Assembly (NCBI GenBank): GCA_031276035.1
Contig: JAISNV010000034.1
Coordinates: forward strand, 124,001 to 188,000
Source of the DNA: Bacteroidales bacterium
Lineage (GTDB): Bacteria > Bacteroidota > Bacteroidia > Bacteroidales > BM520
Direction of reading: 5' to 3'
Length of the DNA: 64,000 nucleotides
The translations under genes and the position numbers were made by a program. Numbering within the stretch: position 1 is the stretch's first letter; every line of letters begins with the position of its first letter. Below are positions 37,947 to 54,772 of the stretch, in pieces. The notes under the pieces were generated by a model. It was not told the DNA's origin. It saw only the letters and a list, made by a program, of their open reading frames with translations, and made no database searches.

Positions 37947-37954
37947 TATCTTTG
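37947..37954 (+). promoter_or_regulatory. -7 box of the polysaccharide-locus promoter
   Basis: TATCTTTG followed by CAG matches TAnnTTTG exactly. A TTTG at 37932-37935 is too close (11 bases) to be a normal -33 element, so recognition may need an activator or an extended element. Transcription would start near 37961 and give a leader of about 220 bases before upxY. Confidence 0.6.
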
Positions 37955-37960
37955 CAGCGT

Positions 37961-38179
37961 TTATGGTACTTATTCTGAGATAGAAAAAGCGCTTAGTGCC
38001 GGAGCGTTTTAGTAAACCAACGTAAGCGGCTAAACATGGCTGTAGATCAGGCGGTTACACTCGCGGTGATAACTTGGAGGTATGCGTTATCAAGTATTTA
38101 TTATTCAAATTAAAAAAATAATAGATTTGAAAAAAATTCCTTCAAAAAATGAATTATAAATAATTAGTGTGAAATCTCT
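37961..38179 (+). ncRNA. candidate structured leader RNA of the upxY polysaccharide operon
   Basis: Bases about 37954-38095 are visibly richer in G and C than the surroundings and hold no reading frame. Four elements can pair alternately: A GTAAACC (38012-38018), B GGTTACAC (38053-38060), C GTGATAAC (38066-38073), D GTTATCA (38086-38092). A:B plus C:D is exclusive with B:C, an attenuator-like layout. Upstream, AAAAGCGCT (37985-37993) pairs with AGCGTTTT (38003-38010), and its loop segment AGTGCC (37995-38000) can pair with GGTACT (37965-37970), a possible pseudoknot. The segment at 38039-38058 resembles the JUMPstart/ops element. The structure is by eye only. A role in UpxY-dependent antitermination is inferred from position. 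Confidence 0.5.
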
Positions 38180-38719
38180 ATGATTAGACAAGATAGAAAA
38201 GCTTGGTATACATTGAAAGTTACTTATTGTAGAGAAATGAAACTTAAAAAAATATTAGACGAAAACAACATAGAGAACTTTATTCCGTTACAAAATAAAT
38301 TAATAGTTAAAAATAATAAAAAACAAAGACAACTAATTCCTGCTATTCATAATCTAATTTTTGTTAATGCAACAAAATCAGATATTGATGATTTAAAACA
38401 ACAACTTGCAACTACTATCCCTATTAAATACTTTTTCGATAAAAATACCAATAATCCTATGATTATTCCGTCTTTTCAAATGAACAGTTTTATAAAATTA
38501 TCCAGGACTTATGATGACGGATTAATTTATATGAATGCTTCAAAAGTCGTATTTAAAAAGGGTGAAAAGGTTAGAATTATAGATGGTCCCTTCAAAGGTA
38601 TTGAGGGGCAATATATGCGTGTTCAAAATGATAGACGAGTGGTTATTGCTATTGAGGGTATAATGGCTGTTGCAACGGCTTTTGTTCATCCATCACAAGT
38701 ACAACGACTTGATGACTGA
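38180..38719 (+). CDS. UpxY-family NusG-like transcription antiterminator
   Basis: UpxY proteins are specialised NusG paralogues that let RNA polymerase read through long capsule operons. In Bacteroides each acts on its own locus through the leader. The 179-residue product has the NGN domain (KAWYTLKVTYCREMKLKKIL, IPAIHNLIFVNATKSDIDDL, about 1-110) and a KOW domain (GEKVRIIDGPFKGIEG, about 128-175). The insert ITNNPMIIPS-like phrase (TNNPMIIPSFQMNSF) before KOW is typical of UpxY. It is the first gene of the polysaccharide locus, behind a 219-base structured leader. The ATG at 38180 gives the family N-terminus. Confidence 0.88.
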   Translation: MIRQDRKAWYTLKVTYCREMKLKKILDENNIENFIPLQNKLIVKNNKKQRQLIPAIHNLIFVNATKSDIDDLKQQLATTIPIKYFFDKNTNNPMIIPSFQMNSFIKLSRTYDDGLIYMNASKVVFKKGEKVRIIDGPFKGIEGQYMRVQNDRRVVIAIEGIMAVATAFVHPSQVQRLDD

Positions 38720-43514: not shown

Positions 43515-44825
43515 ATGATGCAGCAAAATAAGAAAGTTTACGTAGGAATGAGTGCCGATATTATTCATCCGGGACATTTAAACATTATTAAAGAAGCATC
43601 TAAATTGGGCCGAGTTATAGTTGGTGTTTTAACTGATGAAGCTATTGCAAGTTATAAAAGATTGCCGTATCTGAATTTTGACCAACGTTCTTTGATTGTT
43701 GAAAATATTAAGGGAGTTGATGAGGTTGTTGCTCAAACAACTTTAGACTACGTTCCTAACTTGGAATTAATAAAACCCGATTTTGTTGTACACGGCGACG
43801 ATTGGAAAGAAGGTATTCAAAAAGAAACTCGTCAACGTGTTATTGATACGATTTCAAAATGGGGAGGAAAAGTTATAGATGTGCCTTATACAAAAGGGAT
43901 TTCTTCTACACAAATTAACTCTAAATTGAAGGAAATAGGCACAACTCCGGAAATTAGACTTAAAAGATTAAGGCGCTTAATAGCTGCCAAACCGATTGTT
44001 AGAGTTTGTGAGTCGCATAGCGGACTAACAGGATTGATAATTGAGAATACTTCTGTTGAAGTTAACGGAATAAACAAGGAATTTGATGCTATGTGGGCAA
44101 GTAGCTTAACCGATTCTACATCAAAAGGTAAACCCGATATTGAAGCGGTAGATCTAACTACTCGCTTACATGATTTGAATGATGCTCTTGAATGTACAAC
44201 TAAACCTGTTATTTTTGATGGTGATACGGGAGGCAAGATAGAACACTTCGTTTTTACAGTTAGAACACTCGAACGTTTAGGTATATCTGCCGTAATCATA
44301 GAAGATAAAATAGGCTTGAAAAAGAATTCATTGTTTGGTACGGATGCTGTCCAAACACAAGATTCTATAGAAGGTTTCTCGGAAAAAATACGGGCAGGTA
44401 AAAAAGCTCAAGTTACGGATGATTTTATGATTATTGCCAGAATAGAAAGTTTTATTGCAGGAAAAAATTTGCAGGATGCTCTGGAAAGAGCCAAAGCTTA
44501 TGTTGAAGCCGGTGCCGACGGAATCATGATTCATAGTAAAAATAAATCGGGAGAAGATATTAAAGAATTTTGCATTGCTTTCAGACAAGAAAATAAATCT
44601 ACTCCGATAATTGTTGTCCCTACAACCTTTAACCGCATTACCGAAACCGAACTTGCTTCTTGGGGAGTAAATATTGTGATTTATGCAAATCATTTATTGA
44701 GAAGTGCTTATCCCGCAATGCTTAATACGGCTAAATCTATTTTGTTGAATGAACGCTCTTATGAAGCAAATGAATATTGTATGCCGATTAATGAAATATT
44801 AGAATTAATACCGGGCTCTAAATAA
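43515..44825 (+). CDS. phosphoenolpyruvate mutase fused to a cytidylyltransferase-like domain
   Basis: PEP mutase makes the carbon-phosphorus bond by converting phosphoenolpyruvate to phosphonopyruvate. The 436-residue protein has an N-terminal nucleotidyltransferase domain (about 1-140) with the HPGH nucleotide-binding motif at 18-21 and ISSTQI near its end. A PEP mutase domain (about 150-436) follows, with [12 protein letters not shown], the signature [10 protein letters not shown] from 263, and the tail [13 protein letters not shown]. Such fusions are known from glycan-linked phosphonate clusters, where the extra domain is thought to activate the phosphonate as a CMP derivative. It starts at 43515 or 43518. 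Next genes are ppd and a reductase, completing a pathway. Confidence 0.9.
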
Positions 44826-44826
44826 A

Positions 44827-45954
44827 ATGTCTCCAAAATATTTTATAGAAACATTAAGAAACAATAATATTGATTTTTTTGCAGGTGTGCCGGATTCTTT
44901 GTTAAAATCAATTTGTGCATATATTCAAGATAATACTCCTGCAGAAAATAATATTATTACTGCAAATGAAGGAGCTGCAATAGGATTAGGAGCAGGATAT
45001 TATCTGGCTACAGGTAAAATTCCTGTGATATATATGCAAAACTCGGGACTTGGAAATATTGTTAATCCTTTAACATCTTTAATAGATAAGGAAGTTTATA
45101 ATATTCCCATGTTATTGTTAATAGGATGGAGAGGCGAACCGGGCGTTAAAGATGAACCGCAACATATAAAACAGGGAAGAATAACAATTCCTCTGTTAGA
45201 TACTTTGGAAATTAAAAATGAAATATTAACTAAAGATGATGATGCCTTTCCGGAACAATTATCACGAGTGCTTTCATACATCAATTTAACAAAAGAAGCT
45301 TACGCTCTTATCGTTCAAAAAGATACTTTTGAGAATTATTCGCTTAGAGAAAAAGTAAAAAGTATTGATTATACGATGAATCGTGAAAATGCAATCAGTA
45401 TTATTCTTGATAATATAAATGATAATGATGTTGTTGTTTCAACAACAGGAATGACTTCACGCGAGCTGTTTGAACAACGGGAAAAAAGAAATCAAGGACA
45501 CGATAAAGATTTTCTGACTGTAGGTTCTATGGGGCATGCCTCGCAAATTGCCTTAGGTATCGCAATTAGTAAAAAATATAAAAAAATATATTGTTTCGAT
45601 GGAGACGGAGCTGCATTAATGCATATGGGGTCTTTACCTGTTATAGGTTCATTAGCTCCGCAAAATTACATTCATATTCTTTTTAACAACGGAGCTCATG
45701 ATTCGGTAGGTGGTCAGCCGACAGTCGGATTTACCACTGATTTTTGTAAAATAGTTTTATCAAGCGGATATAAAAAAGCTTATTCCGTTGAAACAGAAGA
45801 TAGTCTTAAAAGTACTTTGAATGAAATAAGAAATCTTCAAGGACCTATTTTTATTGAAATTAAAGTACAGAAAGGTGCAAGAAAAGATTTAGGCAGGCCT
45901 ACAAGAACGCCTTTACAAAATAAAGAAGCCTTGATGAAATTCTTAAACGAATAA
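44827..45954 (+). CDS. ppd: phosphonopyruvate decarboxylase
   Basis: Ppd drives the unfavourable mutase reaction by decarboxylating phosphonopyruvate to phosphonoacetaldehyde, using thiamine diphosphate. The 375-residue protein begins YFIETLRNNNIDFFAGVPDS, includes the catalytic-glutamate segment TANEGAAIGLGAGYYLATGK, QNSGLGNIVNPLTSL and GWRGEPGVKDEPQH, and the TPP-binding GDGAALMHMGSL with NNGAHDSVGGQPTVG. Length and motifs fit Ppd closely. It starts 1 base after the PEP mutase stop and 1 base before the reductase, so the three are one unit. Confidence 0.94.
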   Translation: MSPKYFIETLRNNNIDFFAGVPDSLLKSICAYIQDNTPAENNIITANEGAAIGLGAGYYLATGKIPVIYMQNSGLGNIVNPLTSLIDKEVYNIPMLLLIGWRGEPGVKDEPQHIKQGRITIPLLDTLEIKNEILTKDDDAFPEQLSRVLSYINLTKEAYALIVQKDTFENYSLREKVKSIDYTMNRENAISIILDNINDNDVVVSTTGMTSRELFEQREKRNQGHDKDFLTVGSMGHASQIALGIAISKKYKKIYCFDGDGAALMHMGSLPVIGSLAPQNYIHILFNNGAHDSVGGQPTVGFTTDFCKIVLSSGYKKAYSVETEDSLKSTLNEIRNLQGPIFIEIKVQKGARKDLGRPTRTPLQNKEALMKFLNE

Positions 45955-45955
45955 A

Positions 45956-47074
45956 ATGCCGGAAAAACAAATATCATATATCGGAAGCAAATCAATATTT
46001 AAGCTTACAAGTTTATTGCAAAATAAGGGATATAAAAATGTTTTTCTTGTCAGAGCTAAAAAATCATTTGAACTGAGTGGTGCAAAATCTCTTTTTGATG
46101 ATTTAACAGACAAATTGAATTTAAATATCATAGAGTTTTTTGATTTTTCAGAAAACCCGAAAGTAGAGGATTTGAAAATCGGCCTATCTTTACTTTCTGA
46201 AAAGAATATTGATTTGATAATAGCTGTTGGCGGCGGAAGTGTTATTGATATGGCGAAGTTAATACGTTTCTTTTATTCTTATTCGGGAGATTTTACGGGA
46301 AGAGATTTTCAAAAAGAAAAAAATATTATTCCTCTGGTAGCAATTCCTACAACAGCCGGTACAGGTAGCGAAGCAACTCATTTTGCCGTATTATATAAAG
46401 ATAAAGTAAAATATTCAGTTGCACATAAAGATATTTTACCTGATTATGCAATTATCTATCCGCCTCTTACATATTCAACGCCGAAAAATCTAACCGCAAC
46501 TACAGGTTTTGATGCGCTGGCACAGGCAATTGAGGCGTATTGGAATGTGAATGCAACAGATGAATCCGATGAATATGCAGTAAAAGCCATTAAATTGTTA
46601 TGGCAAAATCTTCCCGAAGTTGTAAATAATCCGACAGACAGAATCAGAAATAAAGTTTCGGAAGGAGCTTATTGGGCTGGCAAGGCTATTAATATTACAA
46701 AAACTACAGCTCCGCATGCATTATCTTATGCATTTACTTCTTATTATAATATTCCTCACGGAAATGCAGTTGCATTAACATTTCCTTTCTTTATGAAATA
46801 TAATTTGATTATTCCGCAAGATGAATATTGCGGTGTAATATCTTTGGAAAAATATAATTTAAAAATGAAGTATTTAATGAATTTATTGGAGATTAAATCT
46901 GAAGATGAAATTTATGATAAATTCAATGATTATATAACGAAACTACAATTATCTACAGATTCACATAAAAATGTTAATATTGATATTATTATCAATAACG
47001 TTAATATTGAACGTGCAAATAATAACCCTCGGAAAATAACACGGCATTCCTTAAAGAACTTGTTGGTTTGCTGA
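45956..47074 (+). CDS. phosphonoacetaldehyde reductase (iron-dependent alcohol dehydrogenase family)
   Basis: The 372-residue enzyme belongs to the group III iron-dependent alcohol dehydrogenases. It contains the cofactor motif GGGSVIDMAKLIRF, then IPTTAGTGSEATHFAVL and the metal-binding HALSYAFTSYYNIPHGNAVAL. Coming directly after PEP mutase and Ppd, it most likely reduces phosphonoacetaldehyde to 2-hydroxyethylphosphonate, as PhpC-type enzymes do. No 2-aminoethylphosphonate transaminase sits beside it. The functional call is by context. The fold call is firm. It starts 1 base after ppd. Confidence 0.82.
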   Translation: MPEKQISYIGSKSIFKLTSLLQNKGYKNVFLVRAKKSFELSGAKSLFDDLTDKLNLNIIEFFDFSENPKVEDLKIGLSLLSEKNIDLIIAVGGGSVIDMAKLIRFFYSYSGDFTGRDFQKEKNIIPLVAIPTTAGTGSEATHFAVLYKDKVKYSVAHKDILPDYAIIYPPLTYSTPKNLTATTGFDALAQAIEAYWNVNATDESDEYAVKAIKLLWQNLPEVVNNPTDRIRNKVSEGAYWAGKAINITKTTAPHALSYAFTSYYNIPHGNAVALTFPFFMKYNLIIPQDEYCGVISLEKYNLKMKYLMNLLEIKSEDEIYDKFNDYITKLQLSTDSHKNVNIDIIINNVNIERANNNPRKITRHSLKNLLVC

Positions 47075-50841: not shown

Positions 50842-51846
50842 ATGAATAAAACAATAATAATAGCTGAGGCAGGAGTAAATCATAACGGTTCCATTGATAT
50901 GGCAAAACAATTGATTTCCATAGCAGCTGAAGCCGGAGTTGATTATGTGAAATTTCAAACATTTAAAGCTGATAATCTTGTTTCCGAAAATGCAGTAAAA
51001 GCAGATTATCAAACACGTACGACAGATAAAAATGAATCTCAGCTTGAGATGTTAAAAAAGCTTCAACTTAGTCAGGAACAGCATTATGAACTTATAGAAT
51101 ATTGTAAATCTAAAAATACAAAATTTTTATCTACCGCTTTTGATCTTGATAGCATTGAGTTTCTTTCCGCCCTCAATCTGGGACTTTGGAAAATACCTTC
51201 GGGAGAAATTACCAATTATCCGTATTTAAAAACTATTGCAGAAAAAAACGAACCGGTATTAATGTCGACAGGTATGTCGAGTTTGGATGATATTGAACAG
51301 GCAATAAATGTATTAGTCGATAACGGACTTAGTCGCGAGAAAATTACCGTGTTACACTGTAATACCGAATATCCTACTCCTATGGAAGATGTTAATCTCT
51401 TGGCTATGAATACTATAAAAAACATTTTCAATGTAAAAATCGGGTACTCCGACCATACAGAAGGTATTGAAATACCGATTGCAGCCGTAGCTTTGGGAGC
51501 AACTGTTATTGAAAAGCATATAACACTTGATAGGAATCTTCCGGGACCCGATCATAAAGCATCTATTGAACCCGACGAACTAAAAGCGATGGTAAAAGCT
51601 ATCCGTAATATTGAAAAAGCTTTGGGTAGCCCCGATAAAGTGGTGTCTTCGTCAGAAGAAAAAAATATTACAGTAGCCAGAAAAAGTATAGTTGCAAAAA
51701 GAAATATAGCAAAGGGAGAAAAATTCACAGGAGATAATATAACTACCAAACGTCCCGGTAGCGGAATATCTCCAATGCGCTGGAATGAAGTTTTAGGAAT
51801 GACTGCGATAAAAGATTTTCAAAAAGACGACCTGATAGAATTATGA
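50842..51846 (+). CDS. legI: legionaminic acid synthase LegI (NeuB family)
   Basis: LegI condenses the 6-deoxy-diacetamido-mannose-type sugar with phosphoenolpyruvate to give N,N'-diacetyllegionaminate. The 334-residue protein has the NeuB opening IIAEAGVNHNGSIDMAKQLI, VDYVKFQTFKADNLV, KIPSGEITNYPYL, HCNTEYPTP and GYSDHTEGIEIPIAAVALGA. It ends with a C-terminal SAF-like domain (about 275-334, VAKRNIAKGEKFTGDNI). Sialic acid synthase is the alternative, but LegB and LegC point to legionaminate. It overlaps legG by 4 bases. Confidence 0.9.
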   Translation: MNKTIIIAEAGVNHNGSIDMAKQLISIAAEAGVDYVKFQTFKADNLVSENAVKADYQTRTTDKNESQLEMLKKLQLSQEQHYELIEYCKSKNTKFLSTAFDLDSIEFLSALNLGLWKIPSGEITNYPYLKTIAEKNEPVLMSTGMSSLDDIEQAINVLVDNGLSREKITVLHCNTEYPTPMEDVNLLAMNTIKNIFNVKIGYSDHTEGIEIPIAAVALGATVIEKHITLDRNLPGPDHKASIEPDELKAMVKAIRNIEKALGSPDKVVSSSEEKNITVARKSIVAKRNIAKGEKFTGDNITTKRPGSGISPMRWNEVLGMTAIKDFQKDDLIEL

Positions 51847-52997
51847 GAAAAATATGCGTTGTTACCGGTAGCAGAGCTGAATACGGCTTGTTATCACGAT
51901 TAATGAAATTAATTAAAGATGATCCCGAACTTAATTTGCAGATTATTGCTACAAATATGCACCTTTCACCGGAGTTTGGGTTGACATATAAAGAGATTGA
52001 AAAAGACGGATTTGTAATCGATAAAAAAGTTGAAATGCTTTTATCATCTGATTCCAGTAATGCAACTGTAAAATCGGTTGGACTGGCGATGATAGGATTT
52101 GCTGATGCTTATGAAGATCTTAAACCCGACTTAATTGTTGTTTTAGGTGATCGTTTTGAAATATTGGCTGCTGTTTCGGCAGCTTTGTTTTTTAAAATAC
52201 CTGTTGTACACCTGCATGGAGGAGAAATAACCGAAGGTGCTTACGACGATGCTATTCGTCATGCCATTACTAAAATGGCTCATTTACACTTTACTTCTAC
52301 CGAGAGCTATCGGCAGCGTGTAATTCAAATGGGCGAAAAACCTGAGAATGTTTATTACGTAGGAGCTATTGGTTGCGATAACATCCGGCACATGCCTCTG
52401 ATAAGCAAAGATGAACTGGAAGAATCATTAAATTTTAAATTAGACAGAAATACAATTTTAGTAACGTTTCATCCGGTTACAATGGAAAGTAATACGGCGG
52501 AAAAGCAGTTTGGAGAACTGATTTCTGCTCTGGATAAAATCAAAGATATACGAGTTATTTTCACCATGCCGAATTCGGATACGGATGGGCGAGTGATAAT
52601 GGATATGATAAAACAATATGTAGAGAGAAATAAAGATAAGGCTATATGGTTTCACTCGCTTGGCGTACAACGTTATTTATCCGTATTACAATATATTGGA
52701 GCACTTGTGGGTAATTCTTCAAGTGGAATTATTGAAGCTCCCAGTTTTCATATTCCGACAGTCAATATTGGGAATAGACAAAAGGGGCGGATTTTTGCAG
52801 AAAGTGTATTGCATTGTGAATCCGAGACTGATAGTATCGTACGGAAATTAGAAAAAGCATTACAACCCGATTACAGAGAATCACTACAGACTGTTGAAAA
52901 TCCGTATGATGTACCCGGTACGGCAGAAAAAATCCTGACAATTATTAAACAACATAAAATTGATAGTGCTGTAAAACAATTTTATGATCTAAACTGA
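51843..52997 (+). CDS. legG: hydrolysing UDP-sugar 2-epimerase LegG (NeuC family)
   Basis: LegG removes the nucleotide and inverts C2 to release the free mannose-configured sugar used by LegI. The 384-residue product begins KICVVTGSRAEYGLLSRLM and contains LIVVLGDRFEILAAVSAALF, HLHGGEITEGAYDDAIRHAI, and the nucleotide-site phrase GNSSSGIIEAPSF followed by TVNIGNRQKGR. All are NeuC-family features. It overlaps legI (ATGA) and precedes ptmE by 5 bases. Confidence 0.9.
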   Translation: MRKICVVTGSRAEYGLLSRLMKLIKDDPELNLQIIATNMHLSPEFGLTYKEIEKDGFVIDKKVEMLLSSDSSNATVKSVGLAMIGFADAYEDLKPDLIVVLGDRFEILAAVSAALFFKIPVVHLHGGEITEGAYDDAIRHAITKMAHLHFTSTESYRQRVIQMGEKPENVYYVGAIGCDNIRHMPLISKDELEESLNFKLDRNTILVTFHPVTMESNTAEKQFGELISALDKIKDIRVIFTMPNSDTDGRVIMDMIKQYVERNKDKAIWFHSLGVQRYLSVLQYIGALVGNSSSGIIEAPSFHIPTVNIGNRQKGRIFAESVLHCESETDSIVRKLEKALQPDYRESLQTVENPYDVPGTAEKILTIIKQHKIDSAVKQFYDLN

Positions 52998-53002
52998 TTG
53001 AC

Positions 53003-54043
53003 ATGAATGATTTTTCAAAATATACAATTAATAAAACGGCCACGATTAAAGATGCCTTATTCAAACTGGATACTTTGTCAAGTGATGTGTTGACATTGTT
53101 CGTTATGGATGGAACGCGTTTGGTTGGAACATTAACAGACGGAGATATTCGCAGAGCATTAATACGCGATGTATCGTTAACGGACTCGGTTGAACATGTA
53201 ATGAATGTTGATTATGAGTTTATTTGCTCTAAAGAGAAGAATATGAAAAATCTTCGTAAGATACGTGCAAAAGGGATACAACTTTTACCTTGCATAAATG
53301 ATAAGAAGGAATTATTACGGGTTTATAATCTTAAAGAAATAAAATCAATATTACCGATAGATGCGGTAATAATGGCGGGAGGTAAAGGAGAACGTTTACG
53401 TCCGTTAACCGAAATAACTCCCAAACCGCTATTGAAAGTCGGAGATAAGGCTATTATTGATTACAATGTAGATAGTCTTATAAGTTACGGCGTTGAGGAT
53501 ATTCATATTACTGTAAATTATCTGGCAGATCAGATAGAACAGCATTTCAAGGAAAAGATTAACGGAGTACAGGTTTCATGTGTAAGAGAAAAAACATATT
53601 TAGGTACAATAGCCTCAGTAAAACTTATTTCTTCCTTAAAGAATGATGAGATATTGGTGATGAATTCGGATTTGTTCACTAATATTGATTTTGAAGACTT
53701 TTACAGACATTTCATAGAAAAGGATGCGGATATGTCGGTTGCAGCGATACCTTATTCAATAAATATTCCATACGGCATTTTTAATTTGGAAGGTAGAAAT
53801 ATTAAAGGTATAAATGAAAAACCTACTTATAACTATTATGCTAATGCGGGTATCTATCTGATTAAAAAGAAATTACTGGATCTCATTCCGGAAGATACTT
53901 TCTTTGATGCTACGGATTTTATAGAGATGCTTGTTGCTGAGAATAAAACAGTTATTCGTTATCCCTTAGTAGGTTACTGGGTTGATATCGGAAAACATGA
54001 AGATTATAAAAAAGTACAAGAATTTGTCAGACATATTAAATAA
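53003..54043 (+). CDS. ptmE: CBS-domain nucleotidyltransferase PtmE (GlcN-1-P guanylyltransferase type)
   Basis: The 346-residue protein has two CBS motifs in the first 115 residues (LTDGDIRRALIRDVSLTDSV) and then a sugar-1-phosphate nucleotidyltransferase domain starting AVIMAGGKGERLRPLTEITP. In Campylobacter the same architecture is PtmE, which makes GDP-glucosamine for the GDP branch of legionaminic acid synthesis. Its presence here suggests that LegB uses a GDP-linked substrate. That is inference. It sits between legG and legF with gaps of 5 and 6 bases. Confidence 0.85.
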   Translation: MNDFSKYTINKTATIKDALFKLDTLSSDVLTLFVMDGTRLVGTLTDGDIRRALIRDVSLTDSVEHVMNVDYEFICSKEKNMKNLRKIRAKGIQLLPCINDKKELLRVYNLKEIKSILPIDAVIMAGGKGERLRPLTEITPKPLLKVGDKAIIDYNVDSLISYGVEDIHITVNYLADQIEQHFKEKINGVQVSCVREKTYLGTIASVKLISSLKNDEILVMNSDLFTNIDFEDFYRHFIEKDADMSVAAIPYSINIPYGIFNLEGRNIKGINEKPTYNYYANAGIYLIKKKLLDLIPEDTFFDATDFIEMLVAENKTVIRYPLVGYWVDIGKHEDYKKVQEFVRHIK

Positions 54044-54049
54044 TCAAAA

Positions 54050-54772
54050 ATGAATATATTAATAACTATTTGTGCCAGAGGAGGTTCAAAAGGTATTCCG
54101 GGTAAAAATATAAAAGAGCTTAATGGAAAACCCTTAATAGCATATACCATTGATCTTGCTAAACAAATCCAAAATTTCATTCCGAACGTAGATATAGCTT
54201 TATCTACCGATTCTGATGAAATTATGAGTGTTGCAGAAAGATACGGTTTGCCGAGTAAGTATAAACGCCCCGATAATCTGGCAGACGATTTTGTAGGTAA
54301 AATTGCCGTAATAGCCGATGTTTTAAGATTTTCTGAAAAAGAAAAGTCCGTTATTTATGATTATGTGTTAGATCTGGATGTTACATCACCTTTACGTAAT
54401 ATTGACGATATACTGAAAGCATTCGAATTGATCCGTAATGATCCTGAAGCCATGAATATTTTTTCCGTTAGCGAAGCAGCCAGAAATCCATATTTTAATA
54501 TGGTAGAACAACAGGCCAACGGATATTTTTCACAGGTAAAGAAAAAAGAAACTGCCTTTTTTACCCGCCAGTCTTCTCCTAAAGTGTACGACATAAACGG
54601 ATCTTTTTATATTTATCGTCATGCTTTTTTTGAAAAAGGTTATCAAGAAGCTATTACCGATAAAACAATGATTTATATTATGCCTCATATTTGTTTTGAT
54701 TTGGATCATCCGATAGATTATGATAAGATGTCTTATCTTATGGAAAATAATAAATTGGATTTTTCCTTATAA
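54050..54772 (+). CDS. legF: CMP-legionaminic acid synthetase LegF (NeuA family)
   Basis: LegF activates the nonulosonic acid as its CMP derivative for transfer. The 240-residue protein has the NeuA opening ITICARGGSKGIPGKNIKEL and KPLIAYTIDLAK, then YDYVLDLDVTSPLRN with metal-binding acidic residues, and FFTRQSSPKVYDINGSFYIY. It completes a seven-gene set starting at legB. A CMP-linked product requires a transferase. A candidate lies at 61815. Confidence 0.9.
   Translation: MNILITICARGGSKGIPGKNIKELNGKPLIAYTIDLAKQIQNFIPNVDIALSTDSDEIMSVAERYGLPSKYKRPDNLADDFVGKIAVIADVLRFSEKEKSVIYDYVLDLDVTSPLRNIDDILKAFELIRNDPEAMNIFSVSEAARNPYFNMVEQQANGYFSQVKKKETAFFTRQSSPKVYDINGSFYIYRHAFFEKGYQEAITDKTMIYIMPHICFDLDHPIDYDKMSYLMENNKLDFSL

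Follow-up and report, generated by a model that had tools for sequence, protein, structure and literature searches.

The leader that precedes upxY in the window (the whole 64,000-nucleotide stretch of Bacteroidales DNA analysed here) is, judging from its sequence, a diverged variant of an element that lies upstream of upxY in other Bacteroidales, and we consider that it probably serves as a loading and pause site for UpxY, made up of an RNA hairpin (hairpin B) and non-template DNA, rather than as a switch between mutually exclusive hairpins. The original prediction had named two roles for it, an RNA switch or a recruitment site controlling read-through of the glycan locus; homologous leaders, covarying hairpins and copies of the element at loci without upxY make recruitment and read-through the most likely role, and the switch is not borne out. 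The leader is framed by the following features:

37947–37954, plus strand: Bacteroidota-type −7 promoter element TAnnTTTG (TATCTTTG), assigned from its sequence and a parallel in leader L015.
38180–38719, plus strand: upxY, encoding a NusG-type antiterminator of 179 amino acids (NF033644, PF02357).
38784–62978, plus strand: presumed target operon of about 24 kb of surface-glycan genes, assigned from ORFs and gene families.

The window UpxY matches the antiterm_UpxY model NF033644 at 168 bits (cut-off 100) as well as PF02357; its gene stands immediately 3′ of the leader, and the long glycan operon follows on the same strand. The host, a 2.69-Mb Bacteroidales genome, carries one UpxY and one housekeeping NusG, with no second UpxY seen, and a search of viral contigs for UpxY gave none. 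The gene directly 3′ of upxY encodes a dehydratase, not UpxZ, and a PF06603 (UpxZ) search of the host genome returned 0 matches, a search to which control genomes were equally silent; UpxYs without an UpxZ are known in B. fragilis, and such UpxYs may work like RfaH (PMC7593976). Further along, the window encodes a fusion of PEP mutase with a cytidylyltransferase-like domain (43515–44825; TIGR02320, 407 bits), followed as far as 47074 by ORFs resembling phosphonopyruvate decarboxylase and alcohol dehydrogenase, and this region (43515–47074) may place phosphonate on the glycan of the locus. Similarly, ORFs at 50842–54772 that read as NeuB, NeuC and a CMP-sugar synthetase suggest a nonulosonic acid in the same glycan.

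Transcription probably starts at about 37960. Leader L015 carries an identical TATTTATATCTTTG about 21 nt 5′ of its CTGTAATAG, the spacing in the window being 20 nt, whilst no clear −33 box was found 5′ of the window leader, where a sigma-70 scan was uninformative. From the −7 box to the upxY start codon there are about 220 bases; the leader itself comprises 219 and is, as had been claimed, non-coding and comparatively GC-rich, its G+C being higher in the first 130 bases. A reading as an intrinsic terminator was rejected when a scan of the window leader found neither a terminator nor a terminator helix. Inverted repeats that would mark an invertible promoter were not clearly seen there either, Rfam 15 models returned no relevant family for the window or for other upxY leaders, and searches of the leader DNA against a plasmid collection and same-genus genomes gave short AT-rich matches only.

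The element to which this leader belongs emerges from about 100 UpxY loci, which came from searching the whole order and from scanning 84,980 named genomes. Most Bacteroides leaders in this set carry CUCCUGCGAUAGGGG or similar, which forms hairpin A (the CUGNGAUAG hairpin) with a UGNGAUA loop, and, 79–99 nt later, hairpin B, ACCGG-loop-CCGGU, and then GUCCCCAAAGAAUAUCC; the motif 3′ of hairpin B in upxY leaders reads GUGUCCCCRAGGAAUG. Similar parts occur at a spacing of about 53 nt in some Muribaculaceae leaders, and no such element stands directly upstream of many further upxY genes from the scan, such as those of rumen Prevotellaceae and Muribaculaceae bins. In sets of 18, 20 and 24 leaders, 91% of alignment cells keep the pairs of the two hairpins, with 6–8 pairs changed on both sides, and none of 500 shuffles matches these leaders in percentage paired or in covariation score. 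The five basal pairs of hairpin B hold in 98–99% of cells, the stem of hairpin A shows compensatory C-G / U-A changes among relatives, and the GUGUCCCC box after hairpin B is nearly invariant among the aligned leaders. In two leaders (L010 and L009) we also observed an inverted repeat, AATCTCTGGTATA ... TATACCAGAGATT, about 100–130 nt apart, between the element and upxY.

Comparison of whole leaders places the window leader within this group. The closest homologous leader, L010, comes from a genome (G391) whose UpxY is 52% identical to that of the window, and the two leaders share 66% identity (z = 5.7; 0 of 1000 shuffles as good), with z = 3.6 for L009. The mean similarity over the six nearest leaders is reached by none of 1000 shuffles, the similarity coming mostly from one family (f60), and the two halves of the leader each stand out when tested separately (5′ half, 0 of 2000 shuffles; 3′ half, p = 0.0025). 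A two-sequence profile of L009 and L010 gives its best match in the 64 kb at 37966–38010 (E = 0.036, as against 1.2 for the runner-up). We call the window leader diverged because covariance models R1 and R2, built without it, do not find it as a whole, because its GUGUCCCC box has been replaced, and because it resembles no single Bacteroides leader to a significant degree. Seven genomes of the window's genus or family held no comparable upxY with a leader, so the nearest homologous leaders are those of other families. Two same-family genomes (L121, L122) carry a different UpxY-like gene between MFS-transporter-like and C1-type peptidase-like genes, which has no such leader and is therefore unusable as a close homologue. 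In two same-genus genomes (L123 and L124, 1261–2526) we noted a 421-residue protein that combines a NusG/UpxY-like domain with a long extension at its C terminus, its gene being followed in L124 by a polysaccharide-export-like gene.

Within the window leader, the following parts correspond to this anatomy:

37969–37989, plus strand: hairpin A, CUU.A.UUC-[UGAGAUA]-GAA.A.AAG, placed by a position-weight matrix, model R2 and compensatory changes.
37998–38030, plus strand: helix C, GCCG (37998–38001) with CGGC (38027–38030), followed by UAAACA (38031–38036).
38046–38070, plus strand: hairpin B, AUCA.G-GCG-GUUACACU-CGC-GG.UGAU, placed by alignment to the covarying hairpin B and by folding.
38071–38085, plus strand: post-hairpin motif AACTTGGAGGTATGC, counterpart of GTCCCCRAGGAATGC, placed by alignments A3 and A9 and pairwise with L010.

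Hairpin A of the window is a homologue of the CUGNGAUAG hairpin conserved in other upxY leaders. Its position-weight matrix finds the best site of the leader at 37972, and there are 8 sites of such score in 128 kb over both strands, so that about 0.006 would be expected by chance in 100 nt; it is also the best match of model R2 within the leader (E = 0.062). Given no positions, MAFFT aligns window 37973–37985 to hairpin A and 38046–38070 to hairpin B, which lie 93 nt apart, as against 79–99 in Bacteroides-type leaders. At the top of hairpin B, GCG:CGC replaces the AAA:UUU of L010, a compensatory exchange. The hairpin is a modest one (−6.5 kcal/mol; basal register AUC:GGU or AUCA:UGAU), and it dominates the calculated ensemble at about 0.8 with only the RNA up to 38073 free. 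Helix C is short and has few sequences behind it: at the corresponding positions of L010, GCUG pairs with CAGC, so that a single pair has changed in a compensatory way, and the helix is not kept in the L009 alignment; a YAAACA segment resembling the one on its 3′ side is present in L149 and L135. Of the post-hairpin motif, the core GAGGTATG (38077–38084) is kept, whereas the CCCC box is lost, and GUGAUAACUUG stands where the GUGUCCCC box would be.

Copies of the element also occur away from upxY. When 393 genomes were searched with model R2, the element turned up (at about 1501–1608 in L136, L139 and L142) 5′ of a gene for a WecA-like transferase in three Barnesiella-type genomes, with an export gene visible beside the transferase in L139 and L142 and no upxY in the fetched flanks of any of the three. 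These genomes do have an upxY elsewhere, without such a leader; in the one that is a single contig (G296), upxY lies at 1,850,958 and the element at 88,984. Another genome, G243, holds two copies (L135, 306–432; L149, 814–939) before genes for an AAA ATPase and a Wzx-like flippase, and UpxY was not found in this genome, which is 65% complete. Matches of R2 inside genes are weak, most below 33 bits, and look like noise. This distribution supports the idea that the element is a site of action usable in trans, at which a remote UpxY would act where no upxY is adjacent. Could such elements be portable, two-part loading signals, a UGNGAUA hairpin and, about 90 nt on, a pause hairpin with a non-template motif, placed far from upxY and creating RfaH-like regulons in trans? 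We raise this tentatively, as a possibility that falls somewhat short of an even chance, together with the corollary that the window would hold a re-specified version without the CCCC box, matched to its own UpxY.

How might such a leader work? UpxY prevents premature termination within the 5′ leader of its own operon (PMC7819879, PMC7315117), and PMC12691694 cites contacts between UpxY and upstream duplex DNA. We posit that RNA polymerase, starting at about 37960, would first make hairpin A, of putative function, and helix C, and would then pause just 3′ of hairpin B (38046–38070), at about 38083, a position at which the RNA would be free up to 38073, leaving GAGGTATG (38077–38084) exposed as non-template DNA in the paused complex. 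UpxY made from the same operon would bind the paused polymerase there and travel with it, so that transcription would pass the leader and the glycan locus of more than 24 kb with no early stop; both premature termination in the window leader and recruitment of UpxY to it are thus predicted parts of the scheme. Saba et al. in 2024 reportedly described UpxY as recognising a paused polymerase via non-template and upstream DNA, with nascent hairpins assisting; their abstract reportedly mentions hairpins that first pause the polymerase and then let it escape, and their study may already contain part of the leader anatomy presented here.

Such an escape step is the best-placed of the alternatives, and it refines the loading-site reading rather than opposing it, so that our confidences in the two overlap. 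Hairpin B would hold the polymerase for UpxY, after which a further hairpin would take over its 3′ arm and end the pause:

38067–38092, plus strand: the 3:4 hairpin of the original prediction, 7 perfect pairs, overlapping the 3′ arm of hairpin B and not conserved in L010.

Besides that abstract, the order of folding is consistent with such an exchange, hairpin B being favoured with RNA up to 38073 free and nearly gone beyond 38090. However, the 38067–38092 hairpin reaches at most 0.01 in the calculated ensemble and, as said, L010 does not conserve it, and we regard this added step as unlikely, if worth keeping in mind.

Less probable again is a reading of the leader as an ordinary 5′ UTR that resembles the element by accident, with UpxY acting elsewhere. 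The failure of the covariance models to find the whole element would fit this, as would the loss of the CCCC box, but the shuffle tests and the rank of the profile match speak against it, and the structure has been kept through compensatory changes; we thus hold it to be rather improbable.

The mutually exclusive switch itself fares worse still. It was to choose between stop and read-through by pairing four segments either as 1:2 plus 3:4 or as 2:3, the whole accompanied by a pseudoknot, and the complementarities are indeed in the sequence: segments 1–4 can pair as described, with 7 of 7 pairs in 3:4 (38067–38073 with 38086–38092, UGAUAAC/GUUAUCA, −5.0 kcal/mol alone), 7 pairs plus one bulge in 2:3 and 6 pairs plus one bulge in 1:2. 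The overlap of 3:4 with the 3′ arm of hairpin B also makes some competition possible. Yet helix triples usable as 1:2, 2:3 and 3:4 exist in all 200 of 200 dinucleotide shuffles (158 in the leader against a shuffle mean of 193), shuffled versions of the leader fold just as well (z = −0.77 over 219 nt, −0.36 over 150 nt), and the helices contribute little to the ensemble, with maxima of 0.26 for 2:3 and 0.41 for 1:2 beside the 0.01 of 3:4; the proposal is therefore at chance level. When leaders are aligned and checked for covariation, it is hairpins A and B that covary, whilst L010 has lost most of the 1:2, 2:3 and 3:4 pairs (4 of 6, 4 of 7 and 6 of 7 broken, respectively), and the leader has no terminator helix for a stop. 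We consider such a switch very unlikely. A long single structure, in which the 5′ end pairs with 38093–38099, was dropped since the folding of the leader is no better than that of shuffles. The remaining hairpin of the original prediction is as follows:

37986–38010, plus strand: 9-bp hairpin (37986–37994 with 38002–38010), −9.2 kcal/mol alone.

It shares bases with the outer stem of hairpin A, and relatives do not keep it: of its 9 pairs, 2 are broken in L010 and 3 in L009. The pseudoknot claimed for it does have its 6-nt complement, and 5 of the 6 pairs are kept in L010, though only 3 of 6 in L009; in both leaders the same stretch can instead form or lengthen the outer stem of hairpin A. Finally, translational attenuation by a leader peptide is scarcely credible: a 25-codon ORF, MAVDQAVTLAVITWRYALSSIYYSN (38036–38113), does cross hairpin B and the motif, but it is without a regulatory run of codons, and the reading was dropped because no ORF exists at the corresponding place in the related leaders L010, L009, L149, L135 and L015.

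The loading-site reading can be set beside known systems. RfaH, which acts at ops in Proteobacteria, is a NusG paralogue that joins a paused polymerase near the start of a long surface-glycan operon (PMC7593976, PMC12691694), as is proposed here for UpxY; however, it belongs to another family of NusG paralogues, and in the window the motif is preceded by a conserved nascent RNA hairpin. LoaP with the dfn leader hairpin in Bacillus similarly pairs a NusG paralogue with a leader RNA hairpin needed for antitermination (PMC12691694), whereas the window UpxY scores 42.6 bits on the LoaP model, far under its cut-off of 125. Nearest are the UpxY leaders of Bacteroides capsular loci (for example in B. 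fragilis, B. salyersiae and B. nordii; L042–L063, L088 and L098), which likewise stand directly 5′ of upxY in a glycan operon and share with the window a hairpin A with a UGNGAUA loop, a hairpin B about 90 nt on and a motif rich in A and G with AATG or AATA at its end. Unlike them, the window has no GUGUCCCC box, no upxZ directly after upxY and no clear invertible-promoter repeats, and its genome has a single upxY. Our results offer a conserved and testable anatomy for UpxY-target leaders outside the well-studied genus Bacteroides and suggest that UpxY can act on remote loci in some Bacteroidales; and the loss of the CCCC box, should the UpxY of the window carry corresponding changes, would amount to a natural experiment on the origin of locus specificity.
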